Assembly (NCBI GenBank): GCA_018335035.1 | Contig: JAGXKT010000002.1 | Coordinates: forward strand, 1 to 64,000 | Direction of reading: 5' to 3' | DNA from: Phycisphaerae bacterium | Lineage (GTDB): Bacteria; Planctomycetota; Phycisphaerae; SM23-33 | DNA length: 64,000 nt | Part shown: positions 50,516 to 56,582 of the stretch, piece after piece | How positions within the stretch are numbered: position 1 is the stretch's first letter | How the letters are laid out: each line of letters starts with the position of its first letter | Notes under the pieces: model-generated | The model's input: the letters and a program-made list of their open reading frames with translations, nothing else | Database searches by the model: none | What the model was told of the DNA's origin: nothing | Translations under genes and position numbers: made by a program

Positions 50516-50597
50516 TGCGAGGGACAGGACTCGAACCTGCACCCCTTTCGGGACCAGGACCTAAACCTGGCGCGTCTGCCAGTTCCGCCACCCTCGC
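50516..50597 (-). tRNA. tRNA-Leu (anticodon UAG)
   Basis: An 82-nt class II tRNA. Acceptor GCGAGGG pairs with CCCTCGC, with discriminator A. Anticodon stem CCAGG/CCTGG encloses the 7-nt loop TTTAGGT, giving UAG. There is a short variable arm, and the T arm is GCAGG-TTCGAGT-CCTGT. The 3' CCA is not encoded. It lies convergent to the sugar transferase gene. Confidence 0.95.
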
Positions 50598-50636: not shown

Positions 50637-50662
50637 CCATCTGGCCGAAGCAGCGTCTAACG

Positions 50663-50670
50663 TATAGAAT
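50663..50670 (+). promoter_or_regulatory. Candidate -10 upstream of leader copy A
   Basis: TATAGAAT (50663-50670) contains TAGAAT. No good -35 is seen 16-18 bp upstream. It would start a transcript just before the first hairpin of the structured leader. Confidence 0.35.
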
Positions 50671-50685
50671 ACAAGTGGTTCGCGA

Positions 50686-50824
50686 CGCCGGAATCACTTC
50701 GGCGCCCGCGTCCAACATGCCGATGACGTACTCCGGGCGAATCGCCATTCGCCTTAGCGGGCCCACATGGGCGTAGCGGCCCGTCACGCCAGGACATCCC
50801 GGGGGCGGGTAACACACGCCCCCG
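50686..50824 (+). ncRNA. Structured leader, copy A (candidate cis-regulatory RNA)
   Basis: About 139 nt upstream of the first VWA gene, matching copy B (52154-52306). In order: a 5' hairpin (50686-50689 with 50701-50704, extended by GAA/TTC); a CATGCC block; CTCCG; stem 1 (50736-50742 with 50747-50753); TTAGCGGGC followed by CCAC; stem 2 (50758-50762 with 50779-50783); TCACGCCA; and stem 3 (50800-50807 with 50817-50824). Stems 1 and 3 differ in sequence from copy B but stay paired. No Rfam family is recognised by me. About 150 nt of unassigned DNA separates it from the gene. Confidence 0.65.
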
Positions 50825-50974
50825 CGCAACGCGATGCCGCGCCGCCGTTGGTCGCTTTCCGTCGCAAGAGCGCCGCGACGAACGCGGCATACAACCCAGC
50901 CGCCCGCGACGCGCCGCGTGAGTCGGTGCGCTCGCCCCAGGCGGCGCAGAACACGGCTGCATCAAGGAGACGCC

Positions 50975-52057
50975 ATGACTGACCCCGCTGAAGACACGAT
51001 GCCTTGCCGTCCGAACGTTTCGGCGCACGCCCGCCCGGTCACGCACCGCGCAGGCGACGCATCGTCCGGCCGGATCGAGGACGCTTGCGCCTGCACGCTG
51101 CCGTGGGTCATCAGCGCGTGTTTCCACCTCGGCGTGGCGCTGGTGATGCTTCTCGTCGCCGCGATGGTCTACGACGTGAGGCAGTCCGACCCGCTCGCCG
51201 AGCAGGTCTACGCTGACGTGACCCGCCCGGAGACGACGAGCCGCACGGTTTTCGAAGACGTTCGGCAAAGCACGATTCGGCAAGAGGCCCGTCAGGACAG
51301 GCGTCCCGTGGACCGCCCCGAAGGCGACACGGAGGTGGAGGGCGACATGACGGGAAGAGACCGTCCCGACGTGCCGTCCGTGATCGGCGATGAGGGAGGC
51401 GCAGGTCAGCCCGATGGCGGTCTGCCCGATTACGGGCCGCCTCGGCCCGGCGGCGTGGGTTTCATGGACGTGACCCTCCGGGCAGACCACGTCGTCTACG
51501 TGATCGATCGTTCGGGCTCGATGGCCGGCGGCGGGGCGTTCGACACGCTGCGCCGTAAGCTCGTTGACTCGATCGCCGATTTGCACGTCGGCACGCGGGT
51601 CGCGCAGGACCAGTACTTCCACCTGATCTTCTTCGGTCCTGACGAGCCGGTGGAGCATGCGCCGCGCCGACTGGTCGCCGCGACCAATGCCGCCAAGATC
51701 GAGGCGGGGCGGTTCCTGTACGGTCTGACCCCACAGGGCCGGACGCAGGTCCTGCCGGCGCTGAAGCGTGCGTTCGAGGTTTTCGACGCCGCACCGTCGG
51801 ACGGCAGGAAACTCATCTGCCTGCTTTCGGACGGCGACTTCGAGGGGCTCGGGCAGACGCACAACGCCTACAAGGGCAAAACGGGAAACGAAGCCGTCCT
51901 GGCGTGGCTGTCCGACCACAACGTCGACCGCGACGGCGACGGGCGGCGGGACGTGACGATCCAGGCGTATCTCTACCGCGGCGATGACCCGGACGCCGTC
52001 AGTGTCATGCAAACCATTGGTGACGAGCACGGCGGTTTCGCGCACGTGCGGCCGTAG
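50975..52057 (+). CDS. Membrane-anchored VWA-domain protein 1
   Basis: 360 residues. A short cytoplasmic N-terminus, one membrane helix (about 43-66, WVISACFHLGVALVMLLVAA), a charged periplasmic linker, then a VWA domain with the metal site DRSGSM (Asp178, Ser180, Ser182), FFGPDEPVE, and SDGDFEGLGQT. The C-terminal half is close to the second VWA protein (for example TQVLPALKRAFEVF and NEAVLAWLSDHN), but it lacks that protein's Zn ribbon. ATG 50975 has AAGGAG upstream. VWA domains bind protein ligands through Mg2+; the ligand is unknown. First gene of the ExbB/ExbD module. Confidence 0.88.
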   Translation: MTDPAEDTMPCRPNVSAHARPVTHRAGDASSGRIEDACACTLPWVISACFHLGVALVMLLVAAMVYDVRQSDPLAEQVYADVTRPETTSRTVFEDVRQSTIRQEARQDRRPVDRPEGDTEVEGDMTGRDRPDVPSVIGDEGGAGQPDGGLPDYGPPRPGGVGFMDVTLRADHVVYVIDRSGSMAGGGAFDTLRRKLVDSIADLHVGTRVAQDQYFHLIFFGPDEPVEHAPRRLVAATNAAKIEAGRFLYGLTPQGRTQVLPALKRAFEVFDAAPSDGRKLICLLSDGDFEGLGQTHNAYKGKTGNEAVLAWLSDHNVDRDGDGRRDVTIQAYLYRGDDPDAVSVMQTIGDEHGGFAHVRP

Positions 52058-52097
52058 ACGCACCCGCCGGCGCGGTCGTGTCAGGCCGGTATGGAGC

Positions 52098-52117
52098 GTG
52101 CAAAAAAACCTTTGCAC
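52098..52117 (+). terminator. Hairpin between the two VWA genes
   Basis: GTGCAAA (52098-52104) pairs with TTTGCAC (52111-52117). No T run follows, so termination is uncertain. The right arm overlaps the -35 of the next promoter. Confidence 0.4.
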
Positions 52118-52140
52118 GATGCTTACGAACGATGTACCAT
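52112..52140 (+). promoter_or_regulatory. Promoter of leader copy B and VWA gene 2
   Basis: TTGCAC (52112-52117), a 17-bp spacer and TACCAT (52135-52140). The expected start (about 52147) lies just before the first stem of leader copy B. Confidence 0.5.
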
Positions 52141-52153
52141 GAAATGCGTTATG

Positions 52154-52306
52154 GCCGGGCTGTCTACAAACGGGACCGGCTTCATGCCAGCAGTTAGTTC
52201 CCTCCGGGCGGGCGCCTCGCCTGCCTTAGCGGGCTCACGTCGGCCCAGTAGGTGGCCTCGGCCCGTCACGCCAAGCAACCGATCGAGGGCCCGATAGCCG
52301 CCCTCG
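52154..52306 (+). ncRNA. Structured leader, copy B (candidate cis-regulatory RNA)
   Basis: About 153 nt. A 5' hairpin (52154-52158 with 52176-52180), a CATGCC block, CTCCG, stem 1 (52207-52214 with 52218-52225, one G-U), TTAGCGGGC followed by TCAC, stem 2 (52230-52234 with 52261-52265) with an inner GGCC/GGCC pair, TCACGCCA, and stem 3 (52284-52290 with 52300-52306). The order and unpaired blocks match copy A. The remaining 127 nt up to the gene show no clear structure. Confidence 0.65.
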
Positions 52307-52433: not shown

Positions 52434-53645
52434 ATGGGCGTTAAGTTTCGCTGTGAGAATTGCGGGAAGCTTCTGGACGTTGACGCCAACACCGGGCAGA
52501 ACGTCAAGTGTCCACACTGTCACAAGAAGGTCGCCGTGCCCGCGGGACTGGCCTCGCTGCCGCATCCGCAGGCGGGGGGCAGCCCGCCGCCACCGCCGCC
52601 CCGTGCGGCTCAGGGCGATGCGTCGCAGGACCCCGAGCAGCTCGAGCCGGAAGAGGACGGCGCGGCGATGACGATCATGGCCGAGGTGATGCCGTGGATC
52701 TTCAGCGTGTTCTTCCACCTCGGTCTGGCGCTGGTGGTCTTTCTTGTGACGAAGATGCTGTACGAGCAGCCGCCCCTGCCCGACAAGCTCGCCGAGCAGG
52801 AGCGCGTCGCCGTTCCGGAGCGTCAGAAGACCAGAAGCAAGGTCGTGGACAATCAGGAACGCAGCAACTCCCGGCGCCAGGCGCGCCAGAGCGAAAAGAT
52901 CGTCGAGCGGGCTCGCGGCATCGCGGACGTGGACCTGGACACCACCGGCACCAACCGCCCCGACGCGCCGACTGTGATCGCGCCCAGCGGCGGCGGCGGG
53001 ACGCCGGGCGGCAGATACGCTGCATACGGACCGGATCAGCGCGGCGGGGGGCTGGGCCTGAAATTCCTGGACACCACGATGCGCGGCGACCACATCGTCT
53101 ACGTCATCGACCGATCCGGCTCAATGGCCAGCGGTGGCGCGTTTGACATCCTCGCGAAGAAGCTGGGCGAGTCGCTCGCCGACCTTCGCGCCAGCCAGCA
53201 GTTCCACCTGATCTTCTTCGGCCCCGACGAGCCGGTGGAGAAATCGCCGCGGCGCCTGGTCCCCGCGACGGATGCCAACAAGCGAGCGGCCGCCCCCTTC
53301 CTGGGCCGCTTGGTTCCCGAAGGTCAGACGCAGGTCCTGCCGGCATTGAAGCGGGCCTTCGAGGTCTTCGAGGCCGAGCCGAACGAAGGCAAGAAGCTCA
53401 TTTGCCTGCTGTCCGACGGCGACTTCGAAGGACTCGGGCAGACGAGCAACCGCTACAAGGGCAAGACGGGCAACGAGGCGGTGGTCGCCTGGCTGGCCGA
53501 TCACAACAGCGACGACGACAGTGACGGGCGCCGCGACGTGGAGATCCAGACGTTCCTCTATCGCGGGGACGATCCCGACGCCGTCGAGGTCATGAAGAAA
53601 ATCGCCGCCGAGCACGGCGGGAATTTCACGCACGTAACACAATGA
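52434..53645 (+). CDS. Zn-ribbon membrane VWA-domain protein 2
   Basis: 403 residues. A cytoplasmic N-terminal zinc ribbon (CENC...CPHC; Cys7, Cys10, Cys26, Cys29), a proline-rich stretch (about 51-56), one membrane helix (about 86-109), a basic coiled linker (about 120-165), a Gly-rich hinge, then a VWA domain with DRSGSM (Asp226, Ser228, Ser230) and SDGDFEGLGQT. Paralogue of VWA protein 1, from a gene-plus-leader duplication. The topology puts the ribbon inside and the VWA domain in the periplasm, so the protein could carry a signal across the membrane. Ends in an ATGA overlap with the next gene. Confidence 0.9.
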   Translation: MGVKFRCENCGKLLDVDANTGQNVKCPHCHKKVAVPAGLASLPHPQAGGSPPPPPPRAAQGDASQDPEQLEPEEDGAAMTIMAEVMPWIFSVFFHLGLALVVFLVTKMLYEQPPLPDKLAEQERVAVPERQKTRSKVVDNQERSNSRRQARQSEKIVERARGIADVDLDTTGTNRPDAPTVIAPSGGGGTPGGRYAAYGPDQRGGGLGLKFLDTTMRGDHIVYVIDRSGSMASGGAFDILAKKLGESLADLRASQQFHLIFFGPDEPVEKSPRRLVPATDANKRAAAPFLGRLVPEGQTQVLPALKRAFEVFEAEPNEGKKLICLLSDGDFEGLGQTSNRYKGKTGNEAVVAWLADHNSDDDSDGRRDVEIQTFLYRGDDPDAVEVMKKIAAEHGGNFTHVTQ

Positions 53646-54763
53646 TCCGACAACGCACCATAAATCTGGCGGCCGTGGCGATGGCGGTGGTGACCGTCTG
53701 CGCCGTCGCACCCGCCGACACGGTCGACGATAACGGTACGGTGTGGCACAACGTACGCGTCAGTGATTGCGCGGACGGCGCGCTGTCGTTCGAGTGGCGT
53801 ACGCAGTCGCTGTCGCGGCCGCTGGAGCGCATCCGCCGGATCACGCTCTACGATCAGCCGGCGTTCAACAAGGCCGAAAGCCAACTGCAGGAGGCGCCGG
53901 CGCGCGCCGTGGCCTTGTACGACCGGGCCGAGAAGAACGCCCGCCGCGACTGGTTGAAACGGTTGATCGCCTACCGGCGGCTGACGGCGCTGGGCAAAGC
54001 GGGGCGGATCGGCCAGTGGGTGCGACACTGGGGGCAACTGCTCAAGGAGGGCGACGAACCGCTCGTGGCGGCCGAGTTCCGACCGGCATCGCTCGGGACG
54101 CCCGAGCAGAACGGCCAGGCCTTACAGCACCTGCAATCGCTCCTGGAGGGCGTGGACGACGAGCGAGTCGCGCCGGCGATTCGCGCGGTGATGGCGACGT
54201 TGCGTCGGGCGGGAGCCGATGACGCCGCCGAGGGCAGCGAGGCCGCACCGAGCGAGCGTCCCGCGGCCGACACGCGTGACATGGACGTGTCGGTTCGCGC
54301 CGCTGCCGAGCAGCGCAGCCGGCGCCTGCGAGACATGGAGAGTCTGCTGGCCTCGGGGGATGCCCGGGCAGCGGTTCGTGCCATCGACGCGCAGTTGCCG
54401 GAGTTGACCGACGACGAGCTGCCGCGCGCGCTGTACCTGGCGGGCATGGCTCGGATGAAGGCGTCGCCGGAGGCGTCAAACGCCGCTGAGTTGCTCGCCG
54501 AGGCGGGCGTGATGTTCATGAAGGTGGCCGTGTTCTATCCGTTCGCGGACGACGCGCCTGAGGCGTTGTTGCGGGCGGGGACGGTCAGCGAGCGATTGGG
54601 CAACGACGGCGGTGCCGCCAGCGCCTACGAGGTGGTTGTGGCGCGGTACGCCGACAGTGCGTCAGCGAAGGCCGCCCGCCGGCGGCTGGCGGCGCTGGCC
54701 CGTTCGGGGGCTGAATCGAGCGAAACGCCGGATGCCGTATCCGGCGAAGGCAATACGGACTGA
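53642..54763 (+). CDS. Exported TPR-like protein of the ExbB/ExbD module
   Basis: 373 residues. A signal peptide (about 1-25, ending VAPAD) precedes a short beta region resembling an SH3-like or DUF-type start (TVWHNVRVSDCADGALSFEW) and then helical repeats of the TPR/YbgF kind, clearest at the C-terminus (FYPFADDAPEALLRAGTVSE, ASAYEVVVARYADSASAKAA). The C-terminal part recalls CpoB/YbgF, a TolQR partner. Overlaps VWA gene 2 by 4 nt. A periplasmic adaptor role is inferred. Confidence 0.82.
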   Translation: MIRQRTINLAAVAMAVVTVCAVAPADTVDDNGTVWHNVRVSDCADGALSFEWRTQSLSRPLERIRRITLYDQPAFNKAESQLQEAPARAVALYDRAEKNARRDWLKRLIAYRRLTALGKAGRIGQWVRHWGQLLKEGDEPLVAAEFRPASLGTPEQNGQALQHLQSLLEGVDDERVAPAIRAVMATLRRAGADDAAEGSEAAPSERPAADTRDMDVSVRAAAEQRSRRLRDMESLLASGDARAAVRAIDAQLPELTDDELPRALYLAGMARMKASPEASNAAELLAEAGVMFMKVAVFYPFADDAPEALLRAGTVSERLGNDGGAASAYEVVVARYADSASAKAARRRLAALARSGAESSETPDAVSGEGNTD

Positions 54764-54819: not shown

Positions 54820-55452
54820 ATGGGAATTGAATGGTTCAAGGTATTCTTCGTGCATTGTGGCGGCATCGGCTGGCTGCTCTGGTTGGTCAGCGTCGCCACG
54901 CTTGCGATCATCGTGGAGCACTTCATCTCGATCCGGCGGGCGAACATTCTGCCCGACGAGGTCCATCAGCAGATTCAGAACTACTTCGAGGAGCGGAACT
55001 ACCGTGAGGCGATCGAGGTGACCGCCGAAGAGCCCAGCCAGTTGAGCTACATGATTCACGCGGCCCTGTCCGAGGCGTCGCACGGGTACGCCGCCATGGA
55101 ACGCGCGATGGAAGAGGCCTCGGAAGAACGCACGACGAAGCTTCTGCGCCACATCGAGTGGCTCAATCTCATCGGAAACGTCGCGCCGATGCTCGGGCTG
55201 TTTGGGACGGTCTGGGGCATGATCAAGGCGTTCTTCCAGATCGTGGACGTGGACGGACAGGCCGATCCGTCCAAGCTGGCCGGCGGCATCGGGACCGCGT
55301 TGATGACGACGCTGCTGGGCCTGGCCGTTGCGATTCCGTCGCTGGCGGTGTACGCCCTCATGCGCAACCGGATCGACGCGCTGTCCAGCGAAGCGATGCT
55401 CGCGTCGCAGGATTTGATCTCGAACTTCCGCCCGGGCGCCAAGCAGCAGTGA
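54820..55452 (+). CDS. exbB: ExbB/TolQ/MotA-type proton channel protein
   Basis: 210 residues, three membrane segments (about 13-32, 112-135 and 153-178). Family motifs: a GLFGTVWGMIKAF stretch and GGIGTALMTTLLGLAVAIPSL, the channel helices. With the two ExbD-like proteins that follow it should form a proton-driven stator. AAGGAG precedes ATG 54820. Not a TonB-system operon: no tonB is adjacent. Confidence 0.93.
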   Translation: MGIEWFKVFFVHCGGIGWLLWLVSVATLAIIVEHFISIRRANILPDEVHQQIQNYFEERNYREAIEVTAEEPSQLSYMIHAALSEASHGYAAMERAMEEASEERTTKLLRHIEWLNLIGNVAPMLGLFGTVWGMIKAFFQIVDVDGQADPSKLAGGIGTALMTTLLGLAVAIPSLAVYALMRNRIDALSSEAMLASQDLISNFRPGAKQQ

Positions 55453-55499: not shown

Positions 55500-56033
55500 A
55501 TGGCCAAGAGCGTGGTTTACAAAAAGAGCGACCAGGCCGGCGAGGTCTCGGTCAACATGACCCCGCTGATCGACATCGTGTTTCAGTTGATCATCTTCTT
55601 CATCCTCGCCAGCCAGTTCGCCTCGGCCGAGGTCGCGCGGCTGTCGTTGCCGTTCCCGCACAACCCGGACCCGGACCGCAGCCCCGTGGTCACGGAGGAG
55701 ATCGAAGAAGCGCGCTTGATCATCAACGTCGTCTCGGCGAGCGACCCGCGCTGCCGCAAGGAGTTCATCAATCTCGCGGGCCGCGATCCCGAGCCGGGCG
55801 AACTCGCCTGGTACGTCGTGAACGGAAAGCGGCACTTCGAGGCCCAGGCGTTTGAGAAGATCAAGCAGGCCGTCGCCAGAGCCCGCGACGACGCCAAGGA
55901 AGCCGGTCGCGGCTTCCACGTGGAGATCCGCGCGTCGGCCTCGTTGCAGAACCAGTACGCCCTGTTGCCGCTTCAGGCGGCGATGGCGGCGGACGTGTAC
56001 GATGCGCACCTGGTGGTCAAGCCGTCGAACTAA
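55500..56033 (+). CDS. exbD: ExbD/TolR-type protein 1
   Basis: 177 residues. A short cytoplasmic start, one membrane helix with the proton-carrying Asp25 (MTPLIDIVFQLIIFFILAS), then a periplasmic domain. It differs strongly from the second ExbD of the operon (Asp38), suggesting a heteromeric channel. Typical domain size, with an added central insert (about 70-115). Confidence 0.92.
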   Translation: MAKSVVYKKSDQAGEVSVNMTPLIDIVFQLIIFFILASQFASAEVARLSLPFPHNPDPDRSPVVTEEIEEARLIINVVSASDPRCRKEFINLAGRDPEPGELAWYVVNGKRHFEAQAFEKIKQAVARARDDAKEAGRGFHVEIRASASLQNQYALLPLQAAMAADVYDAHLVVKPSN

Positions 56034-56045
56034 GGGATTGGGCAG

Positions 56046-56582
56046 ATGGAAGCACAGCAGCCAAAGAAAAACGAAAGCAGTGGCCACTACAGATCGCTCC
56101 GGCAGCGGCGCGGGCGCGGCAAGGCCAAGCTCCAGCCCCCCCTGGCGCCGATGATTGACGTGACGTTCCAGTTGCTGATCTTCTTCCTGTTGACGGCAAC
56201 GTTCAGCCACGAGGGCAATATCTCCTACAAGTTCCCGCCGCTTGGGGAAGCCGCCGCCGACAAATCCAACGTCATGGCGACCAACGTGGACGTGGATGAG
56301 CACGGCGAGGGCGACAACGCCAGGCCCACGTACACGGTCTTGGCCGATACGTTGGGCAAGGCCAAGATCGAGCCCCCCTCATACGAGTGGGGCCGACGCG
56401 CGTTCAACGCGATGTCGGACGATTTGGCGCGGGCGCTGTCCGAACAACGCCAGAAGGGCGGCGAGGAAGCGCATGCCATCATTCGCCCGGCGAGCGTGGC
56501 CGTTCAGTGGCGCTACGTCGTCGAGGCGTATAACCAGGCGCGGCGGGCGGGTTTCGTGAAGGTCGGAATTGGTTACGAATAG
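56046..56582 (+). CDS. exbD: ExbD/TolR-type protein 2
   Basis: 178 residues. A longer basic cytoplasmic N-terminus (about 1-32), then LAPMIDVTFQLLIFFLLTAT with Asp38 and a periplasmic domain ending in VEAYNQARRAGFVKVGIGYE. The pairing of one ExbB with two unlike ExbD proteins is the arrangement of the Myxococcus AglRQS motor (family knowledge); homology to it is not claimed. Confidence 0.92.
   Translation: MEAQQPKKNESSGHYRSLRQRRGRGKAKLQPPLAPMIDVTFQLLIFFLLTATFSHEGNISYKFPPLGEAAADKSNVMATNVDVDEHGEGDNARPTYTVLADTLGKAKIEPPSYEWGRRAFNAMSDDLARALSEQRQKGGEEAHAIIRPASVAVQWRYVVEAYNQARRAGFVKVGIGYE

Follow-up and report, generated by a model that had tools for sequence, protein, structure and literature searches.

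A structured RNA stands ahead of each of two vWA genes in the window (the whole 64,000-nucleotide stretch analysed here, from a Phycisphaerae bacterium), and it is likely to be a cis-acting element in the 5′ leader of a vWA force-transducer operon. Its fold is conserved, it lies on the sense strand and it is linked one to one with vWA genes, at both duplicated loci too. From the sequence comparisons we infer that it is co-transcribed with the gene, regulates that gene and has a protein as its partner; it is probably a control element of the vWA operon. The element is lineage-restricted, being confined to one operon in one planctomycete family.

Two copies of the RNA in the window

The copies, A and B, are both of the subtype called type I below (Table 1). 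An alignment of both shows a homologous stretch from a CTCC box to CACGCCA, and direct reading and this alignment bore out the shared blocks and block order described in an earlier, sequence-only reading of the window. Both copies precede VWA genes, as also stated there, with ATG at 50975 and 52434. Stem 1 of that reading is our helix P1 (arms 50735-50742 with 50747-50754 in A; 52206-52213 with 52219-52226 in B). Its pairing is kept between the copies by three two-sided compensatory changes (A-U to G-C twice, U-A to C-G once), with one additional G-C to G-U change. That reading did not spell out helix P2, which both copies also have, with the arms GCGGGC(C/U)/(G)GCCCGU (50757-50763 with 50778-50784 in A; 52229-52235 with 52260-52266 in B). 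CATGCC is found directly upstream of the core in A and B.

When folded as single sequences, neither copy is unusually stable (z of -1.36 for A and +0.17 for B). The case for a structured RNA therefore rests on comparison.

Table 1. Features of the two RNA copies and of the surrounding locus (positions in the window).
Feature	Position	Strand	Evidence or remark
tRNA-Leu gene, marker of the syntenic locus	50516..50597	-	
-10-like TAGAAT of the putative copy A promoter, within TATAGAAT	50665..50670	+	best promoter-like site upstream of A; motif 59 nt on
5′ hairpin preceding core A	50680..50720 (limits approximate)	+	5′ flanks of 13 copies, mean z -1.06
Conserved RNA core, copy A, type I	50729..50791	+	R2 54.4 bits; R3 E 3.7e-8
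P1 hairpin of A, GGGCGAAT/ATTCGCCT	50735..50754	+	compensatory versus B and relatives
P2 helix of A, GCGGGCC/GGCCCGU, around the CACAUG bulge and a vestigial P3	50757..50784	+	
Stem 3 of the sequence-only reading in A, local hairpin beyond the conserved core	50800..50824	+	not conserved in relatives
vWA protein A, 360 aa, TM helix with conserved His, without zinc ribbon	50975..52057	+	Pfam VWA_2 E 4.9e-7; TM helix alignment
Promoter-like site of copy B, TTGCAC-17-TACCAT	52112..52140	+	
Conserved RNA core, copy B, type I	52200..52273	+	R2 68.3 bits; R3 E 1.5e-11
P1 hairpin of B, GGGCGGGC/GCCTGCCT	52206..52226	+	compensatory versus A and relatives
P2 helix of B, GCGGGCU/GGCCCGU, with the CACGUC bulge and P3 GGCC/GGCC	52229..52266	+	
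Stem 3 of the sequence-only reading in B, beyond the core	52284..52306	+	not conserved in relatives
vWA protein B, 403 aa: zinc ribbon, TM helix with His, linker, VWA	52434..53645	+	Pfam VWA_2 E 5.8e-10
TPR1-type gene	53642..54763	+	family by synteny, with homologues at this place in most of the complete loci; no Pfam match
ExbB/TolQ-like motor gene	54820..55452	+	Pfam MotA_ExbB 4.5e-31
Two ExbD/TolR-like genes	55500..56582	+	Pfam ExbD 5e-12 each

Homologues in one planctomycete family

Three covariance models were used, R1 built from A and B only, R2 from ten sequences and R3 from all thirteen. Among 100 related genomes, R1 matched G041 (E 1e-10), two places in G001 (3e-8 and 7e-8) and G018 (4e-7), so that a model of both copies, the check proposed in the sequence-only reading, recovered relatives in other genera. 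In stored loci it gave four further weak matches, upstream of vWA genes. With R2 and R3 the set was clean: 13 copies, spread over 11 of 35 genomes of the same family, with pairing preserved in these homologues. The R3 E-values of the 13 copies range from 1.6e-14 to 3.7e-8 and the next-best match has 0.025; R3 matches its members by construction, and the informative part is this gap.

Beyond the family, covariance-model searches of about 790 sampled genomes (397 of the class, 392 of the phylum) gave no convincing additional copy, and no match occurred in the rest of the order, represented by three genomes. Nor did the model searches of the family, class and phylum samples reveal strong copies ahead of other genes. 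Two matches outside the family, L072 (E 5e-5) and L191 (E 6e-4), were rejected as chance matches, being without the conserved boxes and, as far as read, not before vWA genes. The matches listed by a contig pattern scan were mostly chance. The only strong model matches among them were Planctomycetales records, which were discarded as extra copies since their scores and positions equal those of four copies already found.

Within the family, 24 of the 35 genomes carry no leader, including the congeners G048 and G047, in which the operon is present. The leader is thus dispensable. Its presence and absence on an ExbB tree, itself poorly resolved, is patchy, with 6 changes (at least 2 of them forced).

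Searching the whole window and eight relatives against Rfam 15, only rRNA and tRNA reached the gathering cut-off, with no match for A or B even at E up to 5 or for the relatives at E up to 1. Literature searches returned no description of such a leader RNA. The proposed leader RNA, structured and with compensatory changes, therefore stands as one outside the Rfam classes, pairing being kept in relatives and Rfam giving no match. Cis-regulatory RNA leaders are a familiar kind of element; this family of them appears to be new.

Helices kept by compensatory change, and two subtypes

In the model-fitted alignment A7, which leans towards the structure, 96.9% of the P1 and P2 cells form standard pairs, compared to 30-53% in slid controls (maximum 52.8%). 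Six pairs in this alignment changed on both sides, and its covariation score was reached by none of 500 shuffles. We also ran a tree-aware test with an R-scape-like script (not R-scape), in which the helices, including P3, were placed by hand and the null scattered each column's inferred substitutions randomly on the tree. Five of 19 pairs, three in P1 and two in P3, reached E<0.05, in an alignment made with the structure in mind and in which several unpaired column pairs score equally high. The pairs of P2 are individually non-significant, the inner four being invariant. As judged by the aligned homologues, this is a structured RNA whose helices are kept by compensatory change across diverged genomes.

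The non-Watson-Crick cells, 22 G-U versus 1 A-C, point to the sense strand as the RNA. On the same count, and since copy B has no such tRNA, a leader of the tRNA-Leu on the other strand was rejected.

The mean fold z over the 13 copies was -1.54 for the core, -1.06 for the 5′ flank and -0.22 for the 60 nt of 3′ flank. A hairpin of variable sequence lies ahead of the core in most copies. The stem 3 hairpins of the sequence-only reading are present in A and B, yet they lie outside the alignable core, in differing registers, and in a region that folds no better than shuffled sequence; they were not retained as comparative evidence.

Type I comprises A, B and the copies of G041, G001 (two), G018 and G009, which have CUCUCC or a similar box, a 7-bp P2 and a UCAUGCC tail. 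Type II (G016, G014, G023, G044, G008 and G050) has CUCACC, the bulge CCAUYUCC and a P3 of CCRGGC/GCCUGG, without the UCAUGCC tail. By eye, a GCGG(U/C) box is found 13-25 nt 3′ of the core in 11 of the 13 copies, preceded by a GCAUC box in most type I copies. The long P1 loop of G023, G044, G008 and G050 contains GUCAUACC, which resembles the type I tail GUCAUGCC, as if a module had moved within the RNA.

Some further pairings were tried and rejected. An outer helix CACCG/CGGUG, joining the 5′ box to the GCGGUG box downstream, suits type II and leaves an uncompensated U-U or U-C mismatch in type I (by eye), and only in G041 does GCGGUG suit the bulge as a pairing partner. Mimicry of the 16S decoding site by GCCCGUCACGCCA was also rejected, as the 16S of the same genome has GCCCGUCAAGTCA, with 2 mismatches, and type II has no tail.

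Could the similarity of A and B be unselected, the result of a recent tandem duplication in the window or of a dispersed repeat? Genes A and B do share 69% DNA identity and form a tandem duplication, in which RNA B belongs to the duplicate and A is the syntenic copy. We consider this explanation scarcely credible. Eleven more copies occur in ten other genomes, with encoded proteins only about 35% identical. Core identity between genomes is 66% in type I and 72% in type II, while the 75-nt flanks, at 45-48%, are at the shuffled level. Moreover, the source genome (a 2.74-Mb draft of 82 contigs) contains only two copies, both before vWA genes, and does not show the dispersed repeat that the sequence-only reading had named as a way to fail. 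The relatives' copies, the kept pairing and the shuffled-level flanks refute unselected similarity.

Placement between promoter-like sites and vWA genes

All 13 copies are sense-oriented and point at a vWA gene or at a zinc-ribbon gene at the head of a vWA locus. The distance from core to start codon varies about fourfold (116-445 nt): the next start codon is at 116-219 nt in 10 of the 13 copies and at 280-445 nt in G001a, G001b and G041. The usual locus order is tRNA-Leu (opposite strand), RNA, vWA, TPR, ExbB, ExbD, ExbD, TPR and often tRNA-Cys. Duplicated loci keep the RNA, as seen with A and B in the window and in G001, where a second RNA precedes the second vWA gene on another contig. The copies before duplicated vWA genes (B and G001b) indicate that the RNA accompanies the duplicated gene and does not track the tRNA. 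In many family genomes the operon lies beside a divergent tRNA-Leu(UAG) and often has a tRNA-Cys(GCA) on its downstream side as well (L192, L193, L195-L197, L199-L202 and window 50516-50597), a deeply conserved arrangement.

Promoter-like sites scoring above shuffles were present upstream of all 13 copies, with single-copy P of 0.003 to 0.55 and a combined P, calculated by hand, of about 1e-6. No promoter-like site was found in the 105 nt 3′ of the core; possible promoters lie between core and gene in G041 and G008/G050. As a test of a leader, the placement on the sense strand between a promoter-like site and one gene class is consistent in 13 of 13 copies. A GTCTAA(n)-TATA-like element occurs near the vWA promoter in the window (50658-50670) and in the leaders of G010, G045, G042, G020 and G021. 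It is also present in genomes without the RNA, and may be a conserved promoter or a regulator site.

The downstream vWA operon

The operon has the order vWA-TPR-TolQ/ExbB-ExbD-ExbD-TPR. In its vWA proteins, a linker joins a TM helix that bears an invariant His (PWVISxFFHxG) to a VWA domain. The TM-helix His, the VWA domain and the adjacent TPR, TolQ and two TolR genes are all features of the vWA force transducers, an arrangement for which section 8 of PMC12204202 recently proposed a new class of proton-driven force transducers, as yet uncharacterised, in PVC bacteria. The likeness extends to the linker. In contrast to that section's description, an N-terminal zinc ribbon and a leader RNA are seen here, and the vWA gene is the first of the operon.

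The Zn_ribbon_8 match of vWA protein B (6e-4) is below the family's curated cut-off in Pfam. An N-terminal zinc ribbon is lacking in the first vWA genes of A, G018 and G044a (L195 and L200 among the loci) and present in the other vWA copies; it cannot therefore be the sole reason for the RNA. In G016, G014 and G009 (L197, 175 nt past the core; L196, L198) a short zinc-ribbon gene separates the RNA from the vWA gene, of which it may be a remnant or a partner.

A candidate mechanism and its alternatives

In the cis-acting leader that we favour, a sigma-70-like promoter 49-91 nt upstream of the core would start transcription. From 5′ to 3′, the folded leader would then present a hairpin, the CUCWCC box in single-stranded form, P1, a linker of AA and P2. 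Helix P2 would carry hairpin P3 and a conserved bulge on one side only (YYCAYNU), and the gene starts 116-445 nt 3′ of the core. The unpaired conserved boxes and the P2/P3 bulge most likely form a protein-binding site, and the protein, encoded by the operon itself or acting as a dedicated regulator, would adjust operon expression. In general, protein-binding leaders are confined to a single operon and lineage more often than riboswitches are. Given the confinement of the element to one operon in one family, a protein-binding leader is favoured over a small-molecule riboswitch, at close odds: among cis-acting leaders, we give protein binding somewhat less than an even chance, a small-molecule riboswitch a smaller share and any other mode a slightly smaller one still.

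The sequence-only reading had left the choice between a riboswitch and a protein-binding leader. The structured leader has held; of the two modes, the riboswitch is slightly the less likely. A core that binds a small molecule or ion and so controls the vWA operon would suit the compact two-domain fold, the conserved unpaired nucleotides, the one-sided bulge, the leader position and the two subtypes differing in their boxes. However, the RNA precedes one operon only, in one family, and the operon, itself uncharacterised, suggests no ligand. Intrinsic terminators are absent from most copies (T-runs in 3 of 12 leaders examined), and neither a common terminator nor a shared anti-SD platform was found among the leaders examined. 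A riboswitch is thus rather unlikely, and a little more so the specific version in which a new class with two structural subtypes senses a small signal tied to the envelope or proton-motive state and controls the vWA envelope force transducer. Doubts of another kind attach to a translational switch, in which the ribosome-binding GGAGA of the gene would pair with CAUCUCC in the type II bulge or, in type I, with the CUCUCC box. Type II offers a 9-bp complement, CCCAUCUCC/GGAGAUGGG, in G044 and G023 (one G-U in G023), and its bulge pairing exceeds that of 169 control start regions (Fisher 0.003). This test was post hoc, type I shows no excess, all 13 copies together give Fisher 0.067, and G048 and G011, both without the RNA, have the same GGAGAUGG context at the start. 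Pairing partners at the start site differ from copy to copy, so that ribosome-site sequestering was rejected as a general mechanism, and we hold such a switch to be improbable.

The RNA could also be a stand-alone, trans-acting small RNA gene that lies between tRNA-Leu and the vWA gene by chance. Its own promoter-like sites, the distant gene starts of G001a, G001b and G041 and the possible core-to-gene promoters of G041 and G008/G050 agree with this. Nevertheless, most copies have no terminator 3′ of the core, the start codon follows within 116-219 nt in 10 of 13, and the copies at duplicated vWA genes (B and G001b) follow the gene, not the tRNA. We therefore regard a separate small RNA as unlikely, less so than the translational switch and more so than the riboswitch.

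Comparison with known leaders and significance

Ribosomal-protein leaders are the type case of protein-binding autoregulatory leaders. The vWA leader resembles such leaders in serving a single operon, in being lineage-restricted and in following its gene when duplicated, and by analogy its bulged helix is a plausible protein site. It differs from the ribosomal-protein leaders in that the genes it precedes are those of an envelope motor and not of ribosomal proteins, and in that rRNA mimicry fails, the GCCCGUCAYGCCA tail resembling the 16S decoding strand in type I only.

With the orphan riboswitch and leader-RNA candidates (e.g. the 104 motifs of PMC2864571), the vWA leader shares discovery by covariation, a position 5′ of one gene class and a small multi-helix core with conserved unpaired boxes and no assigned ligand. 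In contrast to them, it matches no Rfam 15 family and is limited to one planctomycete family and one operon.

Few planctomycete structured leaders turned up in the library searched. Here, a covariation-supported leader absent from Rfam 15 is tied one to one to the operon of a proposed new class of proton-driven envelope force transducer without known phenotype. Related genomes with and without the leader are natural controls, and the binding partner of the RNA, once found, would give a handle on the purpose of the force transducer.
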